A stretch of DNA of 64,000 bases. Source: Sulfurospirillum diekertiae. Its GTDB lineage: Bacteria > Campylobacterota > Campylobacteria > Campylobacterales > Sulfurospirillaceae. The translations under genes and the position numbers were made by a program. Under the pieces are notes generated by a model. It saw only the letters and a list, made by a program, of their open reading frames with translations, ran no database searches and was not told where the DNA came from. The DNA lies in contig NZ_CP021416.1 of the NCBI RefSeq assembly GCF_002162315.1, positions 1,500,207-1,564,206 on the forward strand. Direction: 5' to 3'. Within the stretch, counting starts at the first letter, position 1. Every line of letters starts with the position of its first letter. This document shows positions 5,682-56,011 of the stretch, piece by piece.

Positions 5682-6620
5682 GATCATAGATTATAGAATG
5701 AAACAGATGAAGTCAATCGCAATCATTATATGGGAACAATAACAGTTGATATCGGCAAAATAATTGCATGATTTTGACAATTATTGACACCTCGTTGACA
5801 CCAGTAAAGTTTAAGGTTTGGAATATCGTATTTTAGGGAGTTAGGGTGGTACTGAGGCCGGACTAAAATATATGCTTCAACTACAGTAATATCAGTCTTT
5901 AATTATTTTAATGTGGACAAGTACTGTCAAAAGTACTGTTATTTTAAAGTGTTTCAACTATCAGCTTATGCGTGATCTAGTTTTTAGGATGGGAACATAA
6001 TTGTTATATTATTTTAATAGTAAAATACAAAAATCACTTCATTCAGTTAAAACAATATAATCTGCGATTCGTTTTATAACCCCAAATTAAATACTTTTTC
6101 TGAACCAATACTCATTTAACTATAAAATATTTTAATTAATAAAAAAAAATTGAAGTATTTAAAACTTATCTACAATTTCCCTACAACTTAAATGTATATT
6201 TACCATGAAAATATATAAATTTAGATTAATAATGATGAAAAATAGTTAGAAGGAGGATTATATAAGTTCGGTTAGTTATTGTTTTGTTGACTTACTGTTT
6301 GTAGTTTGCTCTCTTTAATTTTAGTGTTTTACTATTGATTAAGAGTATTGGTGACGTCTTTTTGTTTTGCTGTATGTTACCAATTGTTAAAAAACGAACA
6401 AGTAACTTTTTTTATGGATCTGTGGTAGTTACAATTATCATAGGTCTTCATGTTAGCGTTAATAAATATTTATTAGCAAATAAATACAAAAATCAAGGTG
6501 CTAGCCCTATTACTTTCAGATATATATCAAAGTAAAGGTTAATTTAAGATTCAAATGAGATTTTAATTAGAATATGTTTTTATACTAGTTGAAACAAAAC
6601 TATTTTTAGGAGGAGTTTAT
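5682..6620. other. Long AT-rich intergenic region with a possible membrane-gene remnant
   Basis: About 940 bases without a convincing gene. From 6305 to 6535 one frame (plus strand) encodes a hydrophobic stretch followed by a short polar tail, but the start would be TTG without a good Shine-Dalgarno site and the frame is closed just upstream; a good AGGAGG-like site at 6250 is not followed by an ATG. This looks like the tail of a decayed membrane protein. The region also holds the porin promoter and the CTACAA repeats at 6170-6191. Confidence 0.4.
6170..6191. promoter_or_regulatory. Two tandem 11-bp half-sites of the CTAYAA type
   Basis: CTACAATTTCC at 6170 is followed directly by CTACAACTTAA at 6181, exactly one 11-bp period. 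The spacing and core resemble the triple CTATAA-type arrays upstream of pceA and of the 30.3-kb operon, so the same regulator family might act here. The distance to the porin start is about 430 bases, which is long, so the linkage to the porin is uncertain. Confidence 0.35.
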
Positions 6621-7878
6621 ATGAAATTAGCAAAGTTAAGTTTGGCGACATTGATCGCTATGAGTTCAGTTGTGTATGGCGCGGATACACTGGAAGATGC
6701 ATTTAAAAATGGTAAGGTTAACGGGGAAATTAGAGCATTTTATTTTGGTCGTGATTATGATGCTGCTGCACATGGTGGTCCTGGAGCAACAGATTCTTCG
6801 TTAATGGCTTTTGGTCTAAGACTAAGCTATGAGGACGGCTGAATTAAAAGGATTTAGAGTAGGATTAGGTTTTCAAGGACAAAGTACTCCATGGGCTGAT
6901 ACTGATACGAAGCTGGACCATATGTTACCATGGGATTTAGGTGCATCAGGTGCTATTTTATCTGAAGCATACCTTTCTTACACTATGAATAAAACAGTCG
7001 TTAAAGTTGGTCGTCAGTACTTTGATAAGCCACTTATGAGCAGCGATAATCATGACGTAATAAAACAAGCAATTGAAGGTGTTACAATTGTTAGCAATGA
7101 CATTCCTGATACAACACTTTATGCAGCGTATGCATGGAGAATGTCTTGGATGAAGGATAATGGGGTTAATAATGATTTTGCAAATTTTGGCAAGTTTGGC
7201 CTTTTGTATAATGTTATTCCTGGTGCTGAAGGTGGCGACTATGCTTATGTGGTGGGTGCGATCAATAAATCACTTCCAGATACAACATTGACATTGGCTT
7301 ATGGTGAGGAAGATAAATCTCATTCTCTTTTTTTAGCACAAGCTGATTATATGCCAAAGATTAATGATAGCGTAACGTTAGTCACAGGTCTTCAGTTCTG
7401 GAATACAGAATTAGATGAAAGAAGTGTGGCTTGGGCAGATTCAACGGTTTACTCAGCCAAACTTGGTCTTAATGTTGGACCTGTTGGGGCTTATGTAGCG
7501 TATGCTAAGATTAATGATGGACGTGGCGCTTGGGGCGTTGGTATGACAGATGATCGCCCAAGACTGTATACTTCAACACTTACAGATGCTGGACAATTTG
7601 AAGCGTCAACTCAGTATGCTGTTGATGTACATGCATTTGTTCCTCAAATCGCAACCGTTCTTGGCGTGCGTTATGTCAATATTGATTTAGATGAAAAAGG
7701 TGCAGCATCATCACAGGTTGGTATTGGAAAGATTGATCAAACAGGTTTCTATGCTATACACAACTTCAGCGGTTCACTCAAAGGTCTCTACTGTATGGGC
7801 TTTTATGAAATTGCAAATAATAGTAATGATGCATATAGCAGAGATGAAATCCGTTTTAGAGTTGGTTACGAATTTTAA
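6621..7878 (+). pseudogene. OprD-like outer-membrane porin, split by one frameshift
   Basis: A signal peptide (MKLAKLSLATLIAMSS...YGA) precedes a start typical of Campylobacterota porins (TLEDAFKNGKVNGEIRAFYF), and the protein ends in an aromatic C-terminus (RFRVGYEF), a hallmark of outer-membrane beta-barrels. The first frame stops at 6842, after SYEDG, and the rest reads on one frame over from 6829 to 7878. Restoring one base near 6835-6840 gives one protein of about 418 residues. AGGAGG precedes the ATG. Natural loss or a sequencing indel are both possible. A terminator follows directly. Confidence 0.75.
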
Positions 7879-19259: not shown

Positions 19260-19453
19260 GAAAAAGTTATAGATGTAGATATTGATAGAATTGATGGTGT
19301 TTTTTTGAGCATCGAGATAGATAGAAATACTACTGAATATTATTTAATGATTAAAGAATTAGTAGAAAAATTATTATTATCTACAAACAACCTATAATTA
19401 TTTTCTATACTTACATTTATAATAATTAAATATTTTAAAAATAAGGATAGAAT

Positions 19454-20170: not shown

Positions 20171-20203
20171 CTATATCTTTCCTATAACAAAGCTATAACT
20201 TTT
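20171..20203. promoter_or_regulatory. Triple 11-bp tandem half-sites upstream of pceA
   Basis: CTATATCTTTC at 20171, CTATAACAAAG at 20182 and CTATAACTTTT at 20193 follow one another without gap. The same order of cores (CTATAT, CTATAA, CTATAA) occurs at 30196-30228. OmpR/PhoB-type regulators bind direct repeats with this period, and two such regulators are encoded nearby (24854, 29428). A possible -10 element TAAAAT lies at about 20215. Confidence 0.6.
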
Positions 20204-20258
20204 GTATATCATTCTTAAAATGTGAAATTAATTCATAAACACATTAAAAAATAAATAA

Positions 20259-20347
20259 CTGTACTTGGGGTTATTTATAAAAGGTTACAAGAAGGTTTGA
20301 ATACCACTGTGTAAGTTGTTACTCTTGGTATTTTTTAAGGAGGAAGT
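20259..20347 (+). promoter_or_regulatory. pceA leader: conserved box plus hairpin abutting the ribosome binding site
   Basis: The segment GTACTTGGG and, 10 bases on, AAAGGTTACAAGAAGGTTT are shared with the leader of rdhA2 (25677-25764). Then AATACCA (20300) pairs with TGGTATT (20326), followed by four Ts and AAGGAGG. In rdhA2 the arms have different sequence but pair again. This could be an attenuator or a translation-controlling hairpin. Confidence 0.6.
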
Positions 20348-21850
20348 ATGGAAAAGAAAAAAAAGCCTGAACTCTCAAGAAGAGATTTTGGTAAGTTGAT
20401 TATCGGAGCTGGAGCTGCAGCAACGATAGCTCCATTTGGTGTACCAGGTGCAAATGCAGCTGAAAAAGAGAAAAATGCAGCTGAAATTCGTCAACAATTT
20501 GCAATGACTGCAGGTTCTCCCATCATAGTTAACGACAAATTGGAAAGATATGCTGAAGTACGAACAGCGCTTACTCATCCAACCTCAATGTTTAAACCAA
20601 ACTACAAAGGTGAAGTGAAACCTTGGTTTTTATCAGGATTTGATGAGAAAGTACGTCAGATTGAAAATGGTGAAAATGGTCCTAAGATGAAAGCTAAAAA
20701 TGTAGGAGAAGCTAGAGCAGGTCGTGCACTTGAAGCTGCTGGATGGACCTTAGATAATAACTTTGGAGGTAACTTTGGAGGTTATCCAAATAGATTTTCT
20801 ATGTTATGGTCTGGTGAGACTATGCATAACACCCAAATGTGGGCACCAGTAGGGTTAGATAGAAGACCTCCAGATACAACTGATCCTGTGGAACTTACAA
20901 ATTATGTAAAATTTGCTGCACGTATGGCAGGTGCTGATTTGGTAGGTGTTGCAAGATTAAATCGTAACTGGGTTTATTCTGAGGCAGTAACTATACCAGA
21001 TGAACAATCTTGGCCTAAAGAGATTGAAAAGCCAATCGTTTTCAAAGATGTTCCACTACCAATAGAAACTGATGATGAATTAATTATCCCTAATACTTGT
21101 GAAAATGTTATCGTTGCAGGTATCGCTATGAACCGCGAAATGATGCAAACAGCTCCTGCCAGTATGTCATGTGCAGCAGCAGCATTTGGTTATTCACGTA
21201 TGTGTATGTTCGATATGTGGTTATGCCAGTTTATTCGTTATATGGGTTACTATGCAATTCCATGCAGTAATACTCTTGGACAATCAGTTCCCTTTGCTGT
21301 TGAAGCAGGTTTAGGACAAGCTAGTCGTATGGGTCTTTGTATTACTCCTGAATTTGGACCAAACGTAAGACTTACAAAAGTCTTTACAAATATGCCTTTA
21401 GTTCCAGATAAGCCTATCGACTTTGGAGTAACAGAATTTTGTGAAACATGTAAAAAATGTGCACGTGAGTGTCCTTCAAAAGCAATTTCTGAAGGTCCAA
21501 GAACTTTTGAAGGACGAAGTATTCATAATCAATCAGGTAAATTACAGTGGCAAAATGACCATAGTAAATGCTTAGGTTATTGGGTGGAATCTGGTGGATA
21601 TTGTGGTATATGTGTAGCTGTTTGCCCCTTTACAAAAGGCAATATTTGGATTCATGATGGCGTTGAATGGCTTATTGATAACATAAGATTCTTAGACCCA
21701 TTAATGCTTGGTATGGATGATGCATTGGGCTATGGTGCAAAACGAAATATTACAGAAGTTTGGGATGGAAAGATTAATACATATGGTCTAGACGCAGACC
21801 ATTTTAGAGACGCTGTAAGCTTTAGAAAGGATAGGGTTAAAAAATCATGA
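20348..21850 (+). CDS. pceA: Tetrachloroethene-type reductive dehalogenase catalytic subunit
   Basis: 500 residues. Tat signal SRRDFGK at 10-16, cleavage expected after GANA (residue 37). Catalytic residues equivalent to S. multivorans Tyr246, Asn272 and Arg305 are present at Tyr282, Asn308 and Arg341. Two [4Fe-4S] sites: C365, C368, C371, C375 and C408, C419, C422, C426. The corrinoid would be a norpseudo-B12-type cobamide. Compared with the S. multivorans enzyme as I remember it, residues lining the pocket differ: Phe38 to Leu75, Tyr102 to Phe139, Leu186 to Trp (residue 222) and Thr242 to Ala278 (first numbers are mature numbering), with a three-residue insertion near 140 and a four-residue deletion near 217. 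A strong AAGGAGG site precedes the ATG. The pceB ATG overlaps the stop. Confidence 0.95.
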   Translation: MEKKKKPELSRRDFGKLIIGAGAAATIAPFGVPGANAAEKEKNAAEIRQQFAMTAGSPIIVNDKLERYAEVRTALTHPTSMFKPNYKGEVKPWFLSGFDEKVRQIENGENGPKMKAKNVGEARAGRALEAAGWTLDNNFGGNFGGYPNRFSMLWSGETMHNTQMWAPVGLDRRPPDTTDPVELTNYVKFAARMAGADLVGVARLNRNWVYSEAVTIPDEQSWPKEIEKPIVFKDVPLPIETDDELIIPNTCENVIVAGIAMNREMMQTAPASMSCAAAAFGYSRMCMFDMWLCQFIRYMGYYAIPCSNTLGQSVPFAVEAGLGQASRMGLCITPEFGPNVRLTKVFTNMPLVPDKPIDFGVTEFCETCKKCARECPSKAISEGPRTFEGRSIHNQSGKLQWQNDHSKCLGYWVESGGYCGICVAVCPFTKGNIWIHDGVEWLIDNIRFLDPLMLGMDDALGYGAKRNITEVWDGKINTYGLDADHFRDAVSFRKDRVKKS

Positions 21851-22071
21851 AATTATTAAATATTTTAAATTATAAAGCGCTTGGTTTGAGTTTACTTTAT
21901 TTGGCATTGATTTTGGTTACTTTCCAAATTTCAATGGGAAGTTATGGAGAGGATGAGCCACAAGCTGGTAGTATATTAATGGTTGCTGGATTGATTTTTT
22001 CGATCATCGGCGTTTTTCTTTTAATGAAGTTCAAGCCAACATATATTTTATGGGAAAAGCTTAAGCGTTAA
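21847..22071 (+). CDS. pceB: Reductive dehalogenase membrane anchor
   Basis: 74 residues with two transmembrane helices (about 12-32 and 45-60) and a conserved acidic loop GSYGEDEPQAGS between them. The ATG overlaps the pceA stop (ATGA). PceB proteins are thought to hold the mature dehalogenase at the outer face of the cytoplasmic membrane. It differs from the second copy at 27243 at only five residues, and the DNA is nearly identical over the first 180 bases. Confidence 0.92.
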   Translation: MKLLNILNYKALGLSLLYLALILVTFQISMGSYGEDEPQAGSILMVAGLIFSIIGVFLLMKFKPTYILWEKLKR

Positions 22072-22090
22072 TTTCTAAATCTATGCATAA

Positions 22091-22135
22091 AGTAGGGTTT
22101 ACATCATTACATGTAAACCCTACTTTTCTCTTTTT
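22091..22135 (+). terminator. Rho-independent terminator after pceAB
   Basis: AGTAGGGTTTACAT pairs with ATGTAAACCCTACT around a six-base loop, followed by TTTTCTCTTTTTC. The right arm includes an 11/12 match to the TTTACATGTAAA palindrome. Confidence 0.85.
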
Positions 22136-22209
22136 CTAAGTCATAAATATGCTTAAATATACAGCACGTTTAGCTTGACATTCCCATTATTTTGGAGTGA
22201 CTCCAAAGC

Positions 22210-22368
22210 GCTGATGAAGTGGCTGACTTGATTATGACATTTATGCAGGGATTACGAGTTCAATCACGAAATCAATACTCTGGTGATGCAATCAAGCGAG
22301 CCATAAAAACATTTTTGGCTTTGATAAAGTCAATGGAAAAGAAAAAAAGTATATTTTTAGGTTTGTAA
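22210..22368 (+). pseudogene. Remnant of a TetR-family regulator C-terminus
   Basis: An open frame of 52 codons with no start encodes IMTFMQGLRVQSRN and then IKRAIKTFLALI, which match the end of the ligand-binding domain of TetR-type regulators. The frame is closed upstream and no DNA-binding half is left. It indicates that a regulator gene next to pceAB was lost or scrambled. Confidence 0.5.
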
Positions 22369-22467
22369 TTGATATAAGAAAACGTTATAACTTTTTTTTC
22401 AGTTTTAAGAGAGATGACTTGGTAAATAACTCTCTTTTGAGCTAGATCGCCAATTATCTCTCTTGTT

Positions 22468-22884
22468 TTAAAAAGTTAGAGTCGTAATGCGCTCTTCTTT
22501 CTCTTTTTCATAATAAGCTTCTACGCACTCTTTATACGCTGTTAAAAATAACATGCTGCATCGTGATTCTTTAGAATCGTCATCTTTGATTTGTTTCAAA
22601 ATATTACCAGCTAAAATGTAAGTCTCTGAAAGCGTAGCATTAAAAGCAGAATCTAAATAAAGCGAAGCTTGTGCAAGCAGTGATGGGCAACCTTTGATTT
22701 CAAAACCACATCTGACAGTCTTATCATCTTCAATTTGCATAGTAAGGACAACTTTACCTTTTCCATCGGGGTGAAGGCATGTCGCTTTGGCATTGTAATT
22801 ATCTAATAGTCCATAAAAACGAGGGTTTTTCATATGGTCTTCTAATTGGCTTATGAGCCCTGTGTAGTCAAAATCATCACGCAT
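22468..22884 (-). CDS. IscU/NifU-like iron-sulfur cluster scaffold protein
   Basis: 138 residues. NifU N-terminal type fold: KNPRFYG near the start, and conserved cysteines in ATCLHPDGKGKV, IKGCPSLLAQAS and SRCSMLFLTA, which would hold a nascent [2Fe-2S] cluster. It lies convergent with pceAB, between the two dehalogenase units, so a role in loading the iron-sulfur clusters of PceA or of the NapGH-like proteins is plausible. The first Cys is shifted from the usual IscU position. Confidence 0.75.
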   Translation of the reverse strand: MRDDFDYTGLISQLEDHMKNPRFYGLLDNYNAKATCLHPDGKGKVVLTMQIEDDKTVRCGFEIKGCPSLLAQASLYLDSAFNATLSETYILAGNILKQIKDDDSKESRCSMLFLTAYKECVEAYYEKEKEERITTLTF

Positions 22885-23033
22885 AGTGTTTATTCCTTTA
22901 GTTATAATTTTAATTATGGCAAAAAAGTATAGGACGTTTATAGGTAAAATATAAGTTAATTAGACGAAAAAACCTATTATCTCATACTGCGCATTCCTAA
23001 TGTCTAGAAGTATTTTCATACAAATATAGCATA

Positions 23034-24857
23034 TTAATTAACATGGCTAAGATCAATGATAAATTTTGCGCCTTTTTTAGAATTCTTTACATGTAAAGAA
23101 CCACCGATGTTTTTTTCTATGATAATTTTTGCCATATAAAGCCCCAAACCAGTGCCATTTTTTTCTTTTTTAGTGCTAAAGTATGGGTCAAATATCTTCT
23201 CAATGATCTCAAGATCAATTCCTTCTGCATTATCTTCTATGAATATTTCTTTGTTTTTGATAGTAATCCATATCTGTTTGTCTTCTTTGGTTTTCAAGGC
23301 ATCTTTGGCGTTGCTCATGAGAATGGTTAAGACTTGAATGAGTTCATTTTTACATCCAATGATAGTACTTTCATCGCTCTTTACATGTAAAGAAATTTGT
23401 TCTTGTTTAAAAGGTGTTCGGAGTAATACCATGGCACTCTCAACGGCGCTTTTAAGGAGAAAAACACGCTCCTCTTTTTTTGTAGAAAAGAAATTTAAAA
23501 AATCATTGATAGTATTTGACATGTATTTTATCTGTGTATTGGCTTCATGGACCTTTGTTTTCAATTTTTCATGTGAAAGCATTTGAAGTTCACTGGTCAT
23601 TTCAATGTTGGCCAAAGTTGTTGAGACATTGTTAAGAGGTTGTCGCCATTGGTGAGCGATACTTGCAATCATCTCGCCCATTGCAGCAAGGCGTGATTTG
23701 GCTAAAAGCTCTTTTTGAAAAGAGAGTTTTTCATAAAAGAGTTTACTCAACCTGATATAAATAGAAAAGCACAGTAAAATTGCAGCAATAGTATTGGTGA
23801 CCTGCATATTGTTGATGTAGGTGCCCTTGTTTAAGTAGGTATCAAAGAATTTGATATCAAATGAAGAAAAATAGAAGATAAATGGGTAGTAGATAAAGGC
23901 TGAGCTGATGATGTATAAAACGGAGACTGTGAAATCTTTTTTGAGGTTGACAATACCAACCATGAAAAAAAAGGGTAGAATTAATGCTGCTATAATGTAG
24001 CTGTAGTGGTCAAAGATAAAATTGTAGATATTTAATATTAAAGAGAAGAGAAGGCTTATATTGATAAATTTATCAACCCAAAGATAATTATTTTCTGTTT
24101 CAAAAAAGTATTTAGTAAAGAGTAGAAAAGTGATAATGTGAAGGGCAGGGAAGAAGATATTAAAAAGGACAATGATATTTTTATTGGAAAAGTTTAACCA
24201 CTCTAATAAGACGACAATATCAGGAGAACAGTAGAGTGTTGGGGGTAAAAGTACCAAGCAATAGTATCCCAAACTTTTTTCTTTGATAGAAAAAAATACG
24301 ATTAAGTTAAAGAAAAATATACTAATTAAAATTCCGAAAAAGAATCCATTGTCAAAATAAGACTTATCTGTTGAAATAACACTAAAGGTTTTTTCTTGAT
24401 TAACTATTTTTATGGATTTAAAGACATCATACCCTTTTTTTTCATTAGATTTTACATATAGGGTTAAAGTTTCATTGGGGCTAATGATAAAATTATCAAA
24501 TACAAACCCAGTGCGATCTTGGTCATAAAGTGAAGAATGTTTTAGTATTTGATTATGTTTAACATAATAAAGATCCAATTTGGCGTTGTACCAAAAGAAG
24601 ATAATGCTTTTTTCAAGTTGTTGAACATTATTATTGGACATAGGTATTTTTATCCAAAAATTTCTGTTATCTAAATTTCGCATATCAGAGTATTGTAGAT
24701 TTACTTTCGAAAAACTAGGATTATTAATAGCTTCATCAATAGATATATCTTTTTTAAGGAGATACGTTGATGGATTTTCTAAATTAATATAAGGCAAAGC
24801 ACAAGCAGGAGAAAGTATTAATAAATAAACAATCAAAAAAGAGCGTAGTAGTTTCAT
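23034..24857 (-). CDS. Membrane sensor histidine kinase with 7TMR-DISM architecture, partner of the regulator at 24854
   Basis: 607 residues. A signal peptide leads into a periplasmic beta-rich domain (about 25-165; WIKIP and ETLTLYVKSN resemble 7TMR-DISMED2), then about seven transmembrane helices (about 175-370), an H-box (IAHQWRQPLNN, His near 399), N-box (LMSNAKDAL) and ATP-lid motifs (DNAEGID, GTGLGLYMAK). The start overlaps the stop of the regulator gene. The kinase probably senses a chlorinated ethene or a related cue, but no ligand can be read from sequence. It contains two exact 12-bp palindromes, so it has the usual genome signature. Confidence 0.88.
   Translation of the reverse strand: MKLLRSFLIVYLLILSPACALPYINLENPSTYLLKKDISIDEAINNPSFSKVNLQYSDMRNLDNRNFWIKIPMSNNNVQQLEKSIIFFWYNAKLDLYYVKHNQILKHSSLYDQDRTGFVFDNFIISPNETLTLYVKSNEKKGYDVFKSIKIVNQEKTFSVISTDKSYFDNGFFFGILISIFFFNLIVFFSIKEKSLGYYCLVLLPPTLYCSPDIVVLLEWLNFSNKNIIVLFNIFFPALHIITFLLFTKYFFETENNYLWVDKFINISLLFSLILNIYNFIFDHYSYIIAALILPFFFMVGIVNLKKDFTVSVLYIISSAFIYYPFIFYFSSFDIKFFDTYLNKGTYINNMQVTNTIAAILLCFSIYIRLSKLFYEKLSFQKELLAKSRLAAMGEMIASIAHQWRQPLNNVSTTLANIEMTSELQMLSHEKLKTKVHEANTQIKYMSNTINDFLNFFSTKKEERVFLLKSAVESAMVLLRTPFKQEQISLHVKSDESTIIGCKNELIQVLTILMSNAKDALKTKEDKQIWITIKNKEIFIEDNAEGIDLEIIEKIFDPYFSTKKEKNGTGLGLYMAKIIIEKNIGGSLHVKNSKKGAKFIIDLSHVN
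23086..23097. repeat. TTTACATGTAAA palindrome inside a gene
   Basis: Within the kinase gene (minus strand), near its 3' end. Confidence 0.9.
23380..23391. repeat. TTTACATGTAAA palindrome inside a gene
   Basis: Second copy in the same kinase gene, read as Leu-His-Val-Lys. Confidence 0.9.
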
Positions 24858-25525
24858 TTATAGAGTTTCAATTTATAACCAAGTCTTGCTACATTAATAA
24901 TAGTCTCTGGAGGCAAATGTTTTCGGATATCTCGTACTAACGAACGAATAGCGGCACTACTCATACCTTCTTCCCAGATATTATTTTCAAACTCTTGATA
25001 ACTAACAATTTCATTAACACGTTTTAGTAAATATTCTAAAAAAGTGATTTCACTTCTTCTCAAAATTACATCTTTCTCATTGACAAAAAGAGCACGTTTA
25101 ATAGTGTCATAATAAACTATATCAGAAAAATAAATTTTTTCATTTTTATTGTTTTTAAGATTAGCAACACATTTTTTAAGAGCATTTTTGAGATCAATCG
25201 CGGTGACAGGTTTTAGGATATAAGCTGCTAGATTAAGTTCAACGGCTTTTAAAAAATACTCAGTGTCTGTATAAGCAGTAGCAATGACAAGAGGTATTTT
25301 TTGGTTAAATTCACGAATTTGTTCACACACTTCAAGTCCATTAAAGTAGGGCATTTCGATGTCAAAAATAGCAATATCAATAGTATTGTTTTGAAAGATT
25401 TGAAGAGCTTCTTTCCCATCTTTGGCTAAATATACTTTTTTGCAAAAAAGAGAAAGTATTTCTCCTATGTTTTCACGAGTTTGTTCTTCATCATCTGCAT
25501 AGAGTATTGTATAAGAAGCGAGCAT
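24854..25525 (-). CDS. OmpR-family response regulator
   Basis: 223 residues. Receiver domain: acidic pair ADDEE, phosphoacceptor Asp55 (AIFDIEMP), Thr in IATAYT, Lys in YILKPV. The C-terminal winged helix (about 135-223) ends in NVARLGYKLKLYK. It closely resembles the regulator at 29428 (shared YADDE/YAEDD, EMPYFNGLEV/EMPYLNGLEV, EEGMS). It is divergent from rdhA2 and likely binds the 11-bp repeats near the dehalogenase genes. Confidence 0.9.
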   Translation of the reverse strand: MLASYTILYADDEEQTRENIGEILSLFCKKVYLAKDGKEALQIFQNNTIDIAIFDIEMPYFNGLEVCEQIREFNQKIPLVIATAYTDTEYFLKAVELNLAAYILKPVTAIDLKNALKKCVANLKNNKNEKIYFSDIVYYDTIKRALFVNEKDVILRRSEITFLEYLLKRVNEIVSYQEFENNIWEEGMSSAAIRSLVRDIRKHLPPETIINVARLGYKLKLYK

Positions 25526-25606
25526 GTTAAATCCCTGAAATTTTATGAATAATGTACGTATTATAAAAAAGAAATATAGAACTTGTAGATAAAAAATATT
25601 TTCCTT

Positions 25607-25639
25607 CTATTTTAGTTATACAACGGTTGCATAAGTTTT
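25607..25639. promoter_or_regulatory. Degenerate 11-bp half-sites upstream of rdhA2
   Basis: CTATTTTAGTT (25607), ATACAACGGTT (25618) and GCATAAGTTTT (25629) keep the 11-bp period but match the CTATAA core poorly. If the triple array at pceA is an activator site, rdhA2 has lost much of it. Confidence 0.3.
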
Positions 25640-25676
25640 AAATACAATTTTCATAATAAGTCAGATGTTAAATGGT

Positions 25677-25764
25677 TGTACTTGGGATCATTTAATTAAA
25701 GGTTACAAGAAGGTTTAAAATCATTATCATGATTGTATGGTAGATGATTTTTTAAGGAGTAAAT
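25677..25764 (+). promoter_or_regulatory. rdhA2 leader: conserved box plus hairpin abutting the ribosome binding site
   Basis: Shares GTACTTGGG and AAAGGTTACAAGAAGGTTT with the pceA leader. AAAATCAT (25717) pairs with ATGATTTT (25744), followed by Ts and AAGGAG. A competing pairing of AATCAT with the nearer ATGATT (25729) is also possible. Confidence 0.6.
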
Positions 25765-27246
25765 ATGGAAAAGAAAAAACCTGAACTTTCACGTAGAGAT
25801 TTTGGAAAGATAGTTGCTGGCGTTGGTGTTGCGGTTACTATTGCACCATTTGGGGGCACAGATGCTCATGCAAAAGAAAAAGCATCGCAAGAGATTCGTC
25901 ATCAATTCGCGATGCCAGATGGGGTATCTCCTATCAAAATCAATGAAAAGTATGAAAGATTTAATGAGGGGCATGTGGCATTTTATCATCCCTCTTCAGT
26001 GATGATTCCAAACTTCAAAGGAGAAACTAAGTTTTGGGTGTTTTCTATGATGGACCAAAAGCAAAATTTGATTAATACAGCACAACATGCACCTGGCGTT
26101 AAAGCTCCAAGTGTTGCTGAGGCAAGATCTGCTAGAGCATGGGAATCAGCTGCGTGGACACTGAATGAAATGCTAGGATATGGAAAGCCAAATAGAAAGA
26201 TGCATTTATGGGATAATTTTAAAGCAGCAAAGGATTGGCCACATATCTATAACAAAGCACCAGATGAAAAAGATCCTGCCATATTAACAAATCAGATTAA
26301 ATACGTTACAAGATTAGCAGGGGCTGACTTAGTGGGTATTGCAAGATTGAACCGAAATTGGATCTTTAAAGAGGCTTTTACTACAGTATCAGATAAGCCT
26401 GAGGATGATAATAACTTTATCACAAAGCCAATTAACTTTAAAGATATTGAAAAACCAACGGAAACAGAAGATGAATACATTATTCCAAATAGCTTTGCCA
26501 ATGTTATCGTTTCTGCTTTTGCGATGAACCGTGATATGATGCAGTGTTTGGCTACTTCTATGGCACATGCAGCTGCGGCACTTTGTTACTCTCGTATGGT
26601 GGCGCATGATATGTGGATTTGTCAGTTTATTCGTAACCAAGGCTACTATGCAATACCAAGCTGTAATGGTGTTGGACAATCAGTTGCCTTTGCTGTTGAA
26701 GCAGGTTTAGGACAAGCTAGTCGTATGGGAACTATCATCACCCCTGAGTATGGACCAATGGTTCGTCTTTCTAAGATCTTTACCAATATGCCTCTTATTC
26801 CCGATAAACCAATTGATTTTGGTGTTACAGAGTTTTGTGAAACATGTAAAAAATGTGCAAGAGACTGTCCTTCCAAGGCAATCTCAGAAGGGCCACAATC
26901 CTATGAAGCACGAGATATTCATAATGCAAATGGCCGCTACCAATGGCACAATGACCATAAAAAATGTTTACAGTATTGGGTTGAATCGGGCGGAGACTGT
27001 GGCATATGTGTAGCTGTTTGCCCCTTTACAAAAGGCAATATTTGGATTCATGATGGCGTTGAATGGTTGATTGATAAAACAAGATTCCTTGATCCTGTAA
27101 TGCTAGGTATGGATGATGCACTGGGTTATGGTAAAACACGAAATGTAGAAGAAGTATGGAAAGGTAAAATCAATACCTATGGTTTAGATACATCTCACTT
27201 TAAAGATACGGAGACAACAGGAAAGGATAGGGTAAAAAAATCATGA
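25765..27246 (+). CDS. rdhA: Second reductive dehalogenase catalytic subunit
   Basis: 493 residues, Tat signal SRRDFGK at 9-15, cleavage likely after DAHA (36). Residues matching the PceA catalytic triad are intact: Tyr275, Asn301, Arg334. [4Fe-4S] sites: C358, C361, C364, C368 and C401, C412, C415, C419. The N-terminal half is well diverged from PceA, while the C-terminal half and the downstream rdhB are nearly identical in places, which suggests gene conversion. It looks functional on paper; the weaker regulatory array upstream may mean low expression. The substrate is unknown. AAGGAG precedes the ATG. Confidence 0.92.
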   Translation: MEKKKPELSRRDFGKIVAGVGVAVTIAPFGGTDAHAKEKASQEIRHQFAMPDGVSPIKINEKYERFNEGHVAFYHPSSVMIPNFKGETKFWVFSMMDQKQNLINTAQHAPGVKAPSVAEARSARAWESAAWTLNEMLGYGKPNRKMHLWDNFKAAKDWPHIYNKAPDEKDPAILTNQIKYVTRLAGADLVGIARLNRNWIFKEAFTTVSDKPEDDNNFITKPINFKDIEKPTETEDEYIIPNSFANVIVSAFAMNRDMMQCLATSMAHAAAALCYSRMVAHDMWICQFIRNQGYYAIPSCNGVGQSVAFAVEAGLGQASRMGTIITPEYGPMVRLSKIFTNMPLIPDKPIDFGVTEFCETCKKCARDCPSKAISEGPQSYEARDIHNANGRYQWHNDHKKCLQYWVESGGDCGICVAVCPFTKGNIWIHDGVEWLIDKTRFLDPVMLGMDDALGYGKTRNVEEVWKGKINTYGLDTSHFKDTETTGKDRVKKS

Positions 27247-27467
27247 AATTATTAAATATTTTAAATTATAAAGCAATTGGTTTGAGTTTACTTTATTTGG
27301 CATTGATTTTGGTTACTTTCCAAATTTCAATGGGAAGTTATGGAGAAGATGAGCCACAAGCTGGTAGTATATTAATGGTTGCTGGATTGATTTTTTCGAT
27401 CATCGGTGTTTTTCTTGCAATGAAGTTTAAGCCAAACTATATTTTATGGGATAAACTTGAGCGTTAA
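27243..27467 (+). CDS. rdhB: Membrane anchor for the second dehalogenase
   Basis: 74 residues, two transmembrane helices, start overlapping the rdhA2 stop as in pceAB. Differs from PceB at five positions (Ile12, Ala59, Asn64, Asp69, Glu72 here). Confidence 0.92.
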   Translation: MKLLNILNYKAIGLSLLYLALILVTFQISMGSYGEDEPQAGSILMVAGLIFSIIGVFLAMKFKPNYILWDKLER

Positions 27468-27488
27468 TCTTTGAATTGATTATTAAAT

Positions 27489-27535
27489 AAAAGGTACAAA
27501 GTCTACCATTTTTTGGAAGTAATGTACCTTTTTTG
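27489..27535 (+). terminator. Rho-independent terminator after rdhA2/rdhB2
   Basis: AAAAGGTACA pairs with TGTACCTTTT across a loop of about 24 bases, followed by a T-run. Confidence 0.65.
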
Positions 27536-27603
27536 TTTTGTATTTCTGTTAAAGCGATATTTTTGGGAGTAATGGCGATAGTACTATTTTAAAAAACAAG
27601 AGA

Positions 27604-29431
27604 CTATGGAAGTTTTAAGATAAACTCGGCTCCTCTTTTATTGTTTGCAACTTGAATACTCCCTTTTATATTATTTTCCATAATGATTTTTGCTGTGTAG
27701 AGTCCAAGTCCTGTTCCATTCTTTTCAAGTTTTGTTGAAAAATAAGGCTCAAAAATTCGATGAATAATTTTGCTATCAATTCCCCCTGCATTATCGCTAA
27801 TGGATATCTCATTTTTACTTGTTTTAAAATAAATCTTTCGATCTTCTTCAGGATTATCTTTGAGTGCATCTTTTGCATTCGTTAAGATGGTGATAATGAC
27901 TTGTATAAGTTCATTTTTATATGTATTGATTTCAAACATTGCATCGCACTGTGTGTAAATTTGAATATGATTGCTTTCAAAGGATGTGCGCATAAAAGAG
28001 AGTGAATCATCAATGATTTCTTTACATGAAAAAGTAGATTTTTGCTTTTTCTGAGAAAAAAAGTTCATGAAATCTTCTATGGTATTGGTCATATGACGAA
28101 TCTGCAAATGCATCTCATTGAGTTTGTCTTGTAAGGTTTTTGGTGAGAGTTTATCAAGCTGGCTGTGCATGTCTATATTGACAACGATAGAGGAAAGATG
28201 ACTCAGTGGTTGCCTCCATTGATGGGCAATATTGGCAATCATTTCTCCCATCGCACTAAAGCGTGAGCGTGCAAGTATCTCTTTTTCAAATTGCCTTTTT
28301 TCTTCTAAGATCGAGAGTAGCTTTATATAGGTTACAATGCTTAGGCATAAAGAGCATAGTGTGCTGGTGACTTGAAGGTAATTGTTCATATTTTGTACAC
28401 CATCAAAATTGAATATTCTAATAAAGGACTCCATAAATAGAGGGTAGATTAATAAAATCATCGCGATAGAATAAAGGGAAGCTTGCAGTTTGTCTTGTTT
28501 TAACATAATGAGACCAATTAAAATAAAACCTGGTAATAATATACCTGGATAAAAAATAATCAAAGATCCATTTGAAAAGATGAACTGTATAATTACCATT
28601 AGTATACAAGAGAGCATGTAAAAATTTAAAATGCTATTAATCGTGGCATGCTTATATTTGAGATCAAAAAACTCTTTGGTGAAAAGGGTAAGTGTCATCA
28701 AAATACTAAAAGGATTAGCCACTTTCATAATGTTATAGAGTATTGACTTTTCAAGGTATGGACTCAGTGCTGAGTAAAAGCTCCAGTGTAAGTTTGAGGT
28801 AATGAAGATAATGGACATTACAAACAAGACATAATAAAAGTAGCTTTTTAAGGATGTCATAAAGTACATAAATAAACTTGCAAAAAGAATGGTAAGTAAA
28901 ATACCAAATAAAAGACCATGTTTATAAACGCTCTCATAGTTACTAATTTCTGATATAAGTTGTTCAGTATTGATGATATAAGCAGCAGAAAAATCATCCA
29001 CTAATGGGTGATCATTGACTTTGATATAGATGGTACTTTCTTCATTAGGTCCTATAATGAAAGAGTAGTAAGAAATACCATTGTTTATGCCATCACTTAC
29101 AGACTTAGTTTCGATGATTTTATTGTCTTTGCTATAGTAAACTTGGAGGTTGATATTCTTCCAGTAAAAAAGAAGTGTTTTATCTAGCTCTTTATTGAGT
29201 GTGTTTTTGAGAGGTATTTTTAACCAATAGTTCTTTGTAAATTGCTTTCTTAAAAAAACGGAAAGGTTATTGTTTTTGATGAAATCGCTATGCTTGAGAG
29301 CATCTTCTATAAAGATATTTTCATTTAAAAGATACGTATTTCGATGTAATAAGAGTTTCTCTTCATTTAAAGTAATTACGCCACTAAATAAAGAGAGTGT
29401 CAAAAGAAAAAAAAAGAAAGAAGAACTTCAT
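27604..29431 (-). CDS. Membrane sensor histidine kinase with 7TMR-DISM architecture, paired with the regulator at 29428
   Basis: About 608 residues if read from the ATG at 29431, which overlaps the regulator stop exactly as in the other kinase/regulator pair. That frame needs eight rather than the nine As at 29407-29415; then the start is a good signal peptide (MKFFFLFFLLTLSLFSG). As printed, only a TTG start at 29403 is in frame and the signal peptide is lost. Periplasmic domain, seven-helix region, H-box IAHQWRQPLSH, N-box LTNAKDAL, DNAGGID and GTGLGLYTAK follow the layout of the 23034 kinase. It probably controls rdhA2 or the adjacent genes. Confidence 0.85.
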
Positions 29432-30099
29432 TTTTGAAGAACCAGCTTGTATCCAACTTTTGGAATATTTTGAATGCTCTCTTTGGTTAGGTGCTTTCTT
29501 AGATCTTTGACAAGGGTTCGAATAGCTGGACCACTCATCCCTTCTTCCCAAATATTATACTCAAATTCACTATAGTTGATAACTCTATTAGGATTTTTCA
29601 ACATATATTCAAGAAATTGCATTTCAATATTCGTTAATCTGACTTCACTATTATTGATATACAGTGTTCGTTCACCTACATTATAATATGCGCTCTGATT
29701 GATGTGAATTTCGCTATTTTTAGAATAACTTAATTGCTCTTCACATTTTTTAAGTGCTTTTTTCAAATCAGAAGTTTCTATTGGTTTTAAAATATAAGAG
29801 GTTAGATTTAATTCAACTGCTTTTAAAAAATATGCCGTGTCTGTATGAGCTGTAGCCATGACAATCGGGATATTTTTATTGCTTTTTCTGATTTTTTCGG
29901 CCACTTCTAAGCCATTAAGATAGGGCATCTCAATATCGAGTACCATGATATCTGGAGACTCATTTTGATACAATTCATATGCCTTTTCCCCATCTTGTGC
30001 TAGAAGTACATCATCAAAAAGAAGAGAAAGAATTTCTCCAATATTTTTACGAATTCCTGCATCATCTTCTGCATAAAGTACTTTATAGTTTTTAAACAT
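29428..30099 (-). CDS. OmpR-family response regulator
   Basis: 223 residues. Receiver domain with YAEDD, phosphoacceptor Asp55 (MVLDIEMP), ATAHT and YILKPI; winged helix at the C-terminus ending in NIPKVGYKLVLQK. It is a paralogue of the regulator at 24854. It is divergent from the DUF4405/NapGH genes, whose upstream region carries the second triple array of 11-bp half-sites. Confidence 0.9.
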   Translation of the reverse strand: MFKNYKVLYAEDDAGIRKNIGEILSLLFDDVLLAQDGEKAYELYQNESPDIMVLDIEMPYLNGLEVAEKIRKSNKNIPIVMATAHTDTAYFLKAVELNLTSYILKPIETSDLKKALKKCEEQLSYSKNSEIHINQSAYYNVGERTLYINNSEVRLTNIEMQFLEYMLKNPNRVINYSEFEYNIWEEGMSGPAIRTLVKDLRKHLTKESIQNIPKVGYKLVLQK

Positions 30100-30195
30100 G
30101 TGTGAACCTATCCTATAGTTTATAACTATGATTCTATCAGATATTTTGTTAAAAATTAACTTAAAAGAGTAAAAATTATCTATTTAATAGTTACC

Positions 30196-30228
30196 CTATA
30201 TTTCACCTATAAGTTACCTATAAATATT
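30196..30228. promoter_or_regulatory. Triple 11-bp tandem half-sites between the regulator and the DUF4405/NapGH genes
   Basis: CTATATTTCAC (30196), CTATAAGTTAC (30207) and CTATAAATATT (30218) reproduce the array of pceA: same three cores, same order, same 11-bp period. Together with pceA this suggests common control of the dehalogenase and of its putative electron-transfer partners. Confidence 0.6.
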
Positions 30229-30340: not shown

Positions 30341-30678
30341 ATGTTTAGACAAGTAGTATCGTTGACGTTATTGGTTTCATTGCTGGCAGTTGGGAGCTCT
30401 GGTATTTTGATGATTATACTGAATAGTTTTGAGTTTCAGTTTCAGATGCATCCTGTTCATAAGATTTTTGGAGTCTTGATGGTTTTATCCGGTAGTCTAC
30501 ACCTGTATCTTAACTTCGGTTCAGTAAAAAAAATACTTGAATATAAAAAAAGATGGCACTTTTTACAGGAGTATTGAGCATAATAATGGTTTTACTTTAT
30601 GGTGTAGGTATTAATAAACCATTAAACATAGAAAAAATAAAGCAGATGGAAAATATTGCAAAAACATTAGAAGAGTAA
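30341..30678 (+). pseudogene. DUF4405-like small membrane protein, frameshifted
   Basis: The first frame (30341-30577) has one N-terminal helix and then MHPVHKIFGVL with SGSLHLYLNF, the His pattern of DUF4405 membrane proteins that may bind heme b. It stops after an A-run at 30545-30551; losing one A continues as MALFTGVLSIIMVLLYG to 30678, giving about 112 residues with three helices. A Shine-Dalgarno AAAGGAACG precedes the ATG. It opens the operon-like unit with NapG/H-like genes, so it might be the quinol-facing membrane partner. It may be intact in the organism if the indel is an error. Confidence 0.65.
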
Positions 30679-30730
30679 ACAAAATTTCCTCAGAACTGGG
30701 TTAAAACTTCTCTGAATATCTACACATAAT

Positions 30731-30838: not shown

Positions 30839-30910
30839 CTATTTTCTCCGCACAACTTATCTATTTTTTTTTCTTATCATTACATAGCAATAAAAATAAG
30901 TAATGATAAG
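30839..30910. promoter_or_regulatory. Inverted repeat and weak 11-bp repeats upstream of the NapG-like gene
   Basis: CTTATCATTAC (30873) and GTAATGATAAG (30900) form a perfect 11-bp inverted repeat with a 16-base spacer, ending 40 bases before the ATG; no T-run follows, so an operator is likelier than a terminator. Just upstream CTATTTTCTCC (30839), GCACAACTTAT (30850) and CTATTTTTTTT (30861) keep an 11-bp period with poor cores. Confidence 0.4.
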
Positions 30911-54753: not shown

Positions 54754-55360
54754 ATGACATACATGCCTCTTTTATTTTCTCTGGAAGGAAAAAAAGTTTT
54801 GTTGATAGGTGCTGGTGCTATTGGACAACGAAAATTGGAAAAACTTTTGAATTATACTAGCTCAATTACTATTATGACAAAAGAGTGTTCTCACTCAATG
54901 GAAAAAAATCATACATGAAAACAAGCTAATATTAATTACTAAAAGTTATGAACCAAATGATGTAAAAGACTATGATATTATCATAGCCACTATCGATAAT
55001 CTTGATCTTCAAAAAAGCATCTATCAAGAGGCTAAGAAGTACTCAAAGCTCTATAACTGTGTTGATTTCCCAGAATATTGTGATTTCATGTTTCCTTCTA
55101 TTGTACAAAAAGGAGATTTACAAATAGCGTTTTCAACAGGAGGGTATTCTCCTGGATTAGCAAAAGCGTTACGTGCGTTATTTGAGAGGATTATTCCTGA
55201 TGCTGTAATTCCATTTTTAGAGGAAATGAAAGTGTTACGAAAAATGCATCCGAAAGGAGAAAATAGGCAAAAAATTTTTCATGATAAAGTTAATGTATTT
55301 GTAAAACAGCACTTTATAATGCCTACTAATGGAGAAGATTTAAATGGCAAGACCCGTTAA
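54754..55360 (+). pseudogene. Precorrin-2 dehydrogenase/sirohydrochlorin ferrochelatase-like gene (SirC/CysG N-terminus), frameshifted
   Basis: It starts MTYMPLLFSLEGKKVLLIGAGAIGQRKLEKLL, a Rossmann motif with the ligand-binding pattern of SirC-type enzymes, and stops at about 54918. One A fewer in the A-run at 54902-54908 continues as KIIHENKLILITKSY and on through ATIDNLDLQ, VDFPEYCDFMFPSIV, STGGYSPGLAKALR to 55360, giving about 200 residues. The enzyme oxidises precorrin-2 to sirohydrochlorin, the substrate of CbiK, so it should be needed. An indel error is more likely than real loss, unless another copy exists elsewhere. Confidence 0.75.
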
Positions 55361-55904
55361 ATACGATTTAATAAAAATACTTGATGATGCAATGGAACTT
55401 TTTTGGGAAAAAGGGTTTGAAAATGTATCAATTGTAGACTTGATTCTACATACAGGTATCAATCGAAGTACAATGTACTCTTTATTTTCAGATAAAGAGG
55501 CGTTATTTAAAGAAGCACTCCATCACTATTATGCAAAAAGAGCTTCAATGATGATAGGAATATTGCAAACGAATACCGGTAAAAAAGGTGTAGAACTATT
55601 TTTAGGTAAGTTCATTTTTCGTGAAGAATTTAGAGCTTGTCTTTTTAGCATCTGTATGGGAAAAGGCGACTTTATGCGAGAAGAAGTATTTGATGTTCCA
55701 AAGAAGTTTTTTTTAGATTTAAGACAGCAACTTGAAAAAAATTTAATGGATGCCTCTGCAAATGGTGAATTTAATGGTAATGCAAAAGCAATAGCACTTA
55801 CCATCGTAACTATAGTTCATGGCTTTAGCATTCATGGTAAATATAACCACCAAAAAGAAGATGGCGAATTAATTATACAAACCATACTAGCACTGCTCAA
55901 ATAA
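55344..55904 (+). CDS. TetR-family transcriptional regulator
   Basis: 186 residues. N-terminal helix-turn-helix: DDAMELFWEKGFENVSIVDLILHTGINRSTMYSLF. The ligand domain ends with AIALTIVTIVHGFSIHGKYN, typical of the AcrR-like group. The start overlaps the sirC-like gene. It probably controls the redox operon from 56050 onward. The fragment at 22210 in the dehalogenase block shows the same family once was present there. Confidence 0.88.
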   Translation: MARPVKYDLIKILDDAMELFWEKGFENVSIVDLILHTGINRSTMYSLFSDKEALFKEALHHYYAKRASMMIGILQTNTGKKGVELFLGKFIFREEFRACLFSICMGKGDFMREEVFDVPKKFFLDLRQQLEKNLMDASANGEFNGNAKAIALTIVTIVHGFSIHGKYNHQKEDGELIIQTILALLK

Positions 55905-55978
55905 TCACACAACTCCTAACTAAGTTTAAATTATCTTAAATAGTATTTTGGAACAAATATTCCAGAATACGTGATTAT

Positions 55979-56011
55979 CTACTTTTACTCCACAAGTTAC
56001 CTATATATTTT
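55979..56011. promoter_or_regulatory. Possible 11-bp half-sites upstream of the redox operon
   Basis: CTACTTTTACT (55979), CCACAAGTTAC (55990), CTATATATTTT (56001) keep the 11-bp period. The stretch AAGTTACCTATA here is shared with the 30.2-kb array, and both are followed by TTCAT plus AAAAT. It may be part of the same regulon, or it is chance in AT-rich DNA. Confidence 0.3.

Follow-up and report, generated by a model that had tools for sequence, protein, structure and literature searches.

Within the organohalide-respiration (OHR) region of Sulfurospirillum diekertiae, rows of 11-bp direct repeats stand upstream of pceA, the gene for the tetrachloroethene (PCE) reductive dehalogenase, and between the divergent pceSP genes and a DUF4405 gene, which raises the question of which regulator reads them and how its operator is built. 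We analyzed a window of 64,000 nt (NCBI RefSeq contig NZ_CP021416.1, positions 1,500,207 to 1,564,206; site positions below count from its first nucleotide). The repeats at 20171 and 30196 are the published PceP element itself, bound by the OmpR-type response regulator RR2/PceP (Esken et al. 2020, PMC7755780), and operator and regulon were thus already known. Very probably, they are the operator of the PCE-sensing PceS/PceP system of the OHR region, with rows of three 11-bp half-sites serving regulon activation and autoregulation. Added here are the suggestion of three units, a tally of members missing from an earlier preliminary description of this DNA (all of them in PMC7755780), the rejection of a porin gene as a member and a deletion allele in the genome G005. 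This separate computation confirms one operator family linking the dehalogenase, its electron-transfer partners and norcobamide synthesis in PCE-respiring Sulfurospirillum, and suggests a sharper description of the operator.

The preliminary description had reported triple 11-mers of the same order and period at 20171 and 30196, and both are real and exact. The genome-wide motif search that it proposed located the pattern CTATAT-N5-CTATAA-N5-CTATAA (CTATATNNNNNCTATAANNNNNCTATAA) at exactly these two places in the whole 2,876,536-bp genome and its reversed control nowhere (0 matches), against about 0.0015 matches expected per genome from the base composition of the window, for a pattern that was picked after being seen. 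The looser arrays that it listed at 25607, 30839 and 55979 exist too, in the same 11-bp register and with a −10-like hexamer 14 bp past the start of the third unit. Judged by sequence, there are eight rows in the window, at pceAB, TCS2/DUF4405, NifU, pceMN, the flavoprotein operon, rdhA2, TCS1 and ahpD (Table 1; TCS, two-component system). Direct half-sites at offsets 0, 11 and 22 are found in pceAB, TCS2/1504 (the 30196 row) and NifU and are degenerate in the other rows.

The preliminary description knew of no published motif, but one was printed in 2020: PMC7755780 gives the consensus CTATW-N17-CTATW and describes, for pceAB, CTATA repeats separated by six nucleotides and, for the stretch from TCS2 to the DUF4405 gene, three CCTATA repeats. 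It also provides start sites for eight units from differential RNA sequencing (dRNA-seq) and electrophoretic mobility shift assays (EMSA) of purified RR2, the S. halorespirans protein, on all OHR promoters with negative controls included; the ahpD, rdhAB and TCS1 fragments gave complexes that could barely be seen. Most regulon genes are PCE-induced, with log2 values of 9.02 for the flavoprotein gene, 7.96 for pceA, 6.20 for the NifU-like gene, 6.19 for pceM, 4.09 for the DUF4405 gene, 2.29 for ahpD, 2.18 for RR1, 1.69 for pceS, 1.59 for rdhA and 0.89 (not significant) for pceP (PMC7755780). The proposal of one regulon joining pceA to its electron-transfer genes, with an OmpR-type regulator on direct repeats spaced by a helical turn, matches these dRNA-seq and EMSA data, and the sites before pceMN and the flavoprotein/redox operon belong to published regulon members (PMC7755780). 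The proposed decay of the rdhA2 site agrees with its degenerate third unit, with the weak binding published for the fragment that rdhAB and TCS1 share and with the absence of rdhAB transcription (PMC7755780). Two paralogous OmpR-type regulators do flank the sites, and binding is shown in PMC7755780 for the one at 29428 only. Three published members had been missed, namely NifU (22954, minus strand), TCS1 (25601, minus strand) and ahpD (19370).

The rows keep a constant register with the promoters. For this comparison we used the genome G007, whose coordinates agree with the published transcriptional start sites (TSS) of S. multivorans. At the ahpD, pceAB, NifU, TCS1 and flavoprotein promoters, unit 1 begins between −46 and −50, and the modeled −10 box ends at −5 to −9, with the site ends of ahpD, NifU and TCS1 (three of the five promoters) extrapolated from partial profile matches. 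At pceAB, the published TSS lies 8 bp past the end of the −10 box (Table A10 of PMC7755780), and for the divergent pair the two published TSSs are 89 and 81 bp away from the center of the 30196 row. In the five promoters and the pair checked, the rows thus either overlap the −35 box or lie about 85 bp from both start sites; rdhA2 has no TSS, and the start listed for pceMN in Table A10 does not fit. This entry (ppceMN/B12, start 1531093) misfits the S. multivorans numbering, in which the site is at 1501802, and lies exactly 48 bp past the site start in the numbering of the S. diekertiae genome (G000; 1531045), perhaps reflecting a coordinate mix-up.

The agreement of sequence variation with transcript level, already stated in PMC7755780, can be put in numbers. 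Taking the first or main gene per unit (RR1 for TCS1, pceM for the long operon), the scores of left-out sites correlated with published induction over seven promoters, with Spearman coefficients of 0.96 for 42 positions, 0.93 for the first six bases of the three units and 0.89 for 33 positions (exact one-sided p of 0.0014, 0.0034 and 0.006, respectively).

A profile made from sequence only (R1; 42 positions, seven sites, ahpD held out) scored the seven sites at 18.0–25.6 bits in the window, followed by ahpD at 15.1 and then 9.0 bits. Ten matches were listed in its own genome at E ≤ 1, the seven sites, ahpD and two others of at most 12.8 bits, which makes the held-out ahpD the top match after the training sites among those listed. 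Scanning 24 genomes of the genus Sulfurospirillum, with 150 first-look candidates scored per genome, we found the listed matches with E < 0.02 confined to the OHR region of five genomes (G000, G004, G005, G006 and G007); the best listed match outside OHR regions, in G015, had E = 0.0235. PceA homologs (E ≤ 1e-10) occur in the same five genomes, of 397 drawn from the phylum. The 200 bp upstream of pceA, including the repeats, are 100% identical in all five, with pceA coding sequences 93–99% identical pairwise. Upstream of the genes at 30 kb, the repeats are kept in four OHR genomes, whereas G005 has lost two of the three blocks of the 30196 row. We also surveyed 30 regulator loci (L003–L032; 29 proteins, none from L032; L007, L019, L022 and L026 short). 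A 15-position three-unit pattern (at most two mismatches, near the upstream frame end) was present at nine of the ten OHR regulator loci, the exception being L004, the PceP locus of G005, and at none of the 19 non-OHR regulator loci. The 19 non-OHR regulators, 36–48% identical, are probably different regulators, so the absence of the pattern there says little about ancestry.

For the number of half-sites that PceP occupies in a row, two readings compete. The published reading, which we hold to be possible rather than probable, has one PceP dimer sitting on the two outer CTATW blocks, which are 22 bp apart, and takes the central CTATA at −35 promoters as the −35 box for sigma70. EMSA truncations speak for it, in which binding is gone without either outer repeat, as does the overlap of the middle unit with an ACAA −35 box in most promoters (PMC7755780). 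By itself, however, the two-block consensus cannot identify members: its exact matches in the genome number 30, of which three fall at OHR promoters, and the reversed control has 40. It is exact at 20171, 30196 and 30839, has one mismatch at 22954 (minus strand) and 55979, and is weaker at rdhA2, TCS1 and ahpD; neither this consensus alone, nor the −10 hexamer alone, nor a degenerate three-block pattern singles out the sites. We then left out each of the seven sites in turn and ranked it among 127,918 window positions, where rank 7 means that only six training sites score higher. With a 33-position matrix, the ranks were 7, 7, 6, 7, 7, 19 and 26 for pceAB, TCS2, NifU, pceMN, flavoprotein, rdhAB and TCS1. 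In the same order, a matrix limited to the first six bases in units 1 and 3 gave 1, 1, 47, 18, 18, 163 and 105, and the addition of unit 2 gave 2, 2, 7, 9, 7, 17 and 202. Without the −10 box, the middle unit therefore helps four sites, leaves two near the top and hurts TCS1, which makes the case for it suggestive, not decisive. In addition, the first six bases carry 4.3, 5.0 and 5.6 bits in units 1, 2 and 3 (eight sites), the middle unit at TCS2/1504 is intact though far from any −35 box and is held by the authors to be available to RR2 there (PMC7755780), and family members bind adjacent 11-bp half-sites (PMC3798270, PMC4415409). Together, these data are suggestive of an operator with three 11-bp half-sites in fixed register with the −10 box.

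Several results weigh against this operator model or limit the evidence for it. Once the −10 box is included, a matrix without the middle unit is nearly as good (ranks 1, 9, 9, 7, 7, 19 and 10 without and 2, 7, 7, 7, 6, 9 and 16 with unit 2), and the published two-block positions also track induction over the seven promoters (Spearman 0.82, p = 0.017). In seven of the eight sites, the middle unit falls on the −35 region, so its conservation could stem from sigma70 alone, and it agrees with CTAYAW at only four of six positions in pceMN and three of six in TCS1. The seven training sites match R1 by construction and form a small set, the genome-scale E-value of ahpD is only 0.10, and the TCS1 site in four of the five OHR genomes (13.5–13.6 bits, E 0.33–0.37) does not outscore matches elsewhere. 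The five genomes are nearly identical in the OHR region; their agreement is thus not independent, and cross-genome conservation was set aside as evidence. Finally, loosening the triple (CTATW three times at 11-bp spacing, at most two mismatches) yields 96 genome matches against 74 for the reversed control, so looseness quickly destroys the signal. Whether such repeats are equally common at random AT-rich sites, as the preliminary description had asked, therefore depends on the pattern, the degenerate triple being nearly so and the exact triple not.

The explanation that the arrays are mere chance repeats in AT-rich intergenic DNA draws on the two-block and degenerate three-block matches being about as common as their controls and on single places, e.g., 2621 (minus strand) or 6170, that reach intermediate scores. 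It is scarcely credible, since both exact triples lie before induced operons and the published EMSA binding with negative controls has already refuted it for the main sites (PMC7755780). Chance does suffice for the porin gene starting at 6621, whose membership via a site at 6170 is highly improbable. Two CTACAA units 11 bp apart exist there, as had been noted, and with 16.0 bits in the 33-position matrix the site ranks 10th in the window, but the third unit reads ATGTAT and no −10 box lies in register. Simulated DNA yields 0.7–1.3 such sites per megabase and strand, or 4–8 per genome, a place inside a 165-aa open reading frame (ORF) of the window scores 15.8 bits, and 6170 is not among the 72 R1 window matches at E ≤ 10. 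Moreover, the distance from site to porin start is 451 bp in G000 and G006 but 1,370–1,389 bp in the other three OHR genomes, a stop ends the first porin frame after 73 codons in each of the five, and the table of most regulated genes in PMC7755780 names no porin, although site and gene are split by an insertion in S. multivorans. Because of its chance-level score and the missing −10 box, we rejected the porin as a member despite its rank. A regulon with two inputs, in which RR1 binds the same operators, alone or with PceP, is somewhat unlikely. RR1 and PceP are 55% identical, PF00072 and PF00486 score above cut-off in both, their recognition-helix segments SGPAIRTLVKDLRKHLT and SSAAIRSLVRDIRKHLP differ mainly conservatively, and TCS1 and rdhA2 share the intergenic region holding two weak sites. 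TCS1 transcripts are low with and without PCE, however, and strains N and JPD-1, in which RR2 is disrupted, do not dechlorinate (PMC7755780), even though RR1 is present in the JPD-1 genome (G004).

Under regulation by PceS/PceP, PceS would sense PCE, and PceP would then bind the direct half-sites and activate transcription. A good operator would be a row of three 11-bp direct half-sites, each CTAYAW followed by five AT-rich bases. The row would overlap the −35 box at a fixed distance from the −10 box at pceAB, NifU, pceMN/B12, the flavoprotein operon, ahpD, TCS1 and probably rdhA2, a placement from which PceP probably activates by contacting RNA polymerase. The 30196 row, standing off from both the pceSP and the DUF4405 starts, would provide autoregulation. 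We infer that PceP may also fill the middle half-site, head to tail, with the row read with a polarity toward the DUF4405 gene. The 30196 row does point toward this gene, and the stronger induction of the DUF4405 gene compared with pceS or pceP fits such a polarity; basal expression of pceSP accounts for part of the difference as well.

A natural variant of this row exists in G005. Its pceP–DUF4405 region carries a 23-bp deletion between two AGTTACC words and is otherwise as in the other genomes. The deletion removes the CTATA blocks of units 1 and 2, leaving one of three half-sites, whereas pceP is intact (full length, identity 100% as rounded) and the other seven OHR-region sites are among the R1 matches listed. 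The PceA proteins of G005, G004 and G006 are 97.2%, 94.0% and 92.1% identical to that of G007, the same values as PMC8865925 gives for ACSDCE, JPD-1 and S. halorespirans. Strain ACSDCE is thus the probable identity of G005, which also has two contigs, a plasmid being described for that strain (PMC8865925). We found no report of the 23-bp deletion in the open-licence literature searched, which included the main text of PMC8865925. It is conceivable, though doubtful, that the published long-term memory of PCE respiration arises from feedback through the 30196 row, with PceP raising its own level and holding the regulon on for many generations. If so, G005 would still induce pceA but lose the slow decay. 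The allele thus offers a natural test of pceP autoregulation in induction and in the memory effect, by comparing natural strains.

Table 1 PceP sites and associated genes in the 64,000-nt window.
Feature	Position	Strand	Details
Weak site before AhpD/CMD-domain gene	19370–19402	+	First unit lost; units 2 and 3 CTACAA and CTATAA; held-out site
PceP site before pceAB	20171–20203	+	CTATATCTTTC CTATAACAAAG CTATAACTTTT; −10 TATCAT at 20207–20212
pceA, PCE reductive dehalogenase	20348–21850	+	Dehalogenase and Fer4 domains
PceP site before IscU/NifU-like gene	22922–22954	−	TTATATTTTAC CTATAAACGTC CTATACTTTTT; one mismatch from three-unit pattern
RR1 of TCS1, PceP paralog	24854–25525	−	Response_reg and Trans_reg_C; similar recognition-helix segment
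Weak site before TCS1 operon (second response regulator)	25569–25601	−	Third unit CTATAT good; CTACAA 2 bases off register for unit 2
Weak site before rdhA2	25607–25639	+	CTATTTTAGTT ATACAACGGTT GCATAAGTTTT; third unit degenerate (GCATAA)
rdhA2, second reductive dehalogenase gene	25765–27246	+	Only Fer4 domains at E ≤ 0.001; 64% identical to PceA
PceS, cognate histidine kinase	27604–29403	−	ORF; name by gene order from PMC7755780
PceP (RR2), OmpR/PhoB-type response regulator	29428–30099	−	Response_reg and Trans_reg_C; name and binding from PMC7755780
PceP site between divergent pceSP (minus) and DUF4405 gene (plus)	30196–30228	+	CTATATTTCAC CTATAAGTTAC CTATAAATATT
DUF4405 gene, SMUL_1540 counterpart	30341–30577	+	Frameshifted in present assembly
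PceP site before pceMN and long norcobamide operon	30839–30871	+	CTATTTTCTCC GCACAACTTAT CTATTTTTTTT
PceP site before flavoprotein/Rieske/FMN operon	55979–56011	+	CTACTTTTACT CCACAAGTTAC CTATATATTTT

Downstream of the promoters, the 5′ leaders of pceA (20251–20347) and rdhA2 (25667–25764) share an identical loop TGTACTTGGG in a stem with compensatory changes, followed by an identical AAAGGTTACAAGAAGGTTT; the coding sequences of the two genes are 68% identical. For the rdhA2 leader, folding predicts a hairpin with a T run at its end, ahead of the ribosome site; in the pceA leader this hairpin was read by eye, and the predicted fold differs. The leaders are a candidate leader RNA, though represented by only two sequences and with weak fold z-scores (−0.5 and −1.3). 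No Rfam family reached its gathering threshold in the window, and when the two leaders were searched with relaxed settings, the Rfam matches were all weak and stayed far under the gathering scores. In a collection of genome contigs, from which near relatives may be left out, the leader pattern occurred in 24 stretches, one of them from Sulfurospirillum (JPD-1, 2 matches).

Further features were seen beside the sites. A perfect 11-bp inverted repeat CTTATCATTAC/GTAATGATAAG (30873–30910, found by eye) spans the −10 box of the pceMN promoter and is possibly an operator for another regulator, e.g., a TetR-like protein. Between the ORF at 55344–55904, which sits at the tetR position in the gene order of PMC7755780, and the flavoprotein operon lies a near-perfect palindrome GTATTTTGGAA/TTCCAGAATAC (55943–55970, also by eye), a possible TetR operator or terminator. 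In the DUF4405 gene (30341–30680), two A runs are one base longer than in four relatives, leading to a stop after 78 codons, compared with a published protein length of 111 (PMC7755780); the frameshift could be an assembly error or real. PceA has G, S and P where the four other genomes have C, C and A, which are three of the four positions that PMC8865925 ties to strains converting PCE to trichloroethene, if a numbering offset of 4 is allowed; the DNA analyzed perhaps stems from a strain resembling SL2-1. The OprD-family porin (6621–7878) continues in another frame after its early stop in all five OHR genomes; in three of them, insertions of about 0.9 kb separate the gene from its upstream region.

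Compared with the PceP element of PMC7755780, the regulator, promoters and repeats are the same; the difference is that the published model uses two outer half-sites N17 apart, leaving the center to sigma70 at −35 promoters, whereas we propose a row of three 11-bp units and describe the G005 deletion allele. Among related systems, ArcA of the OmpR/PhoB family binds two to five direct repeats, mostly 11 bp center to center, with three-repeat sites common and 22-bp gaps also occurring; in E. coli, three to five repeats, mostly 11 bp apart, are present in 92 of 158 sites (PMC3798270). By analogy, PceP may fill three half-sites, as ArcA does at many of its sites. ArcA differs in being a global redox regulator, and its half-site sequence is not that of PceP. 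The PHO box is likewise built from two 11-nt direct repeats with seven conserved and four less conserved positions, on which the DNA-binding domains sit head to tail (PMC4415409). PhoB answers to phosphate and PceP to PCE. The PHO box half-site is CTGTCAT rather than CTATAW.

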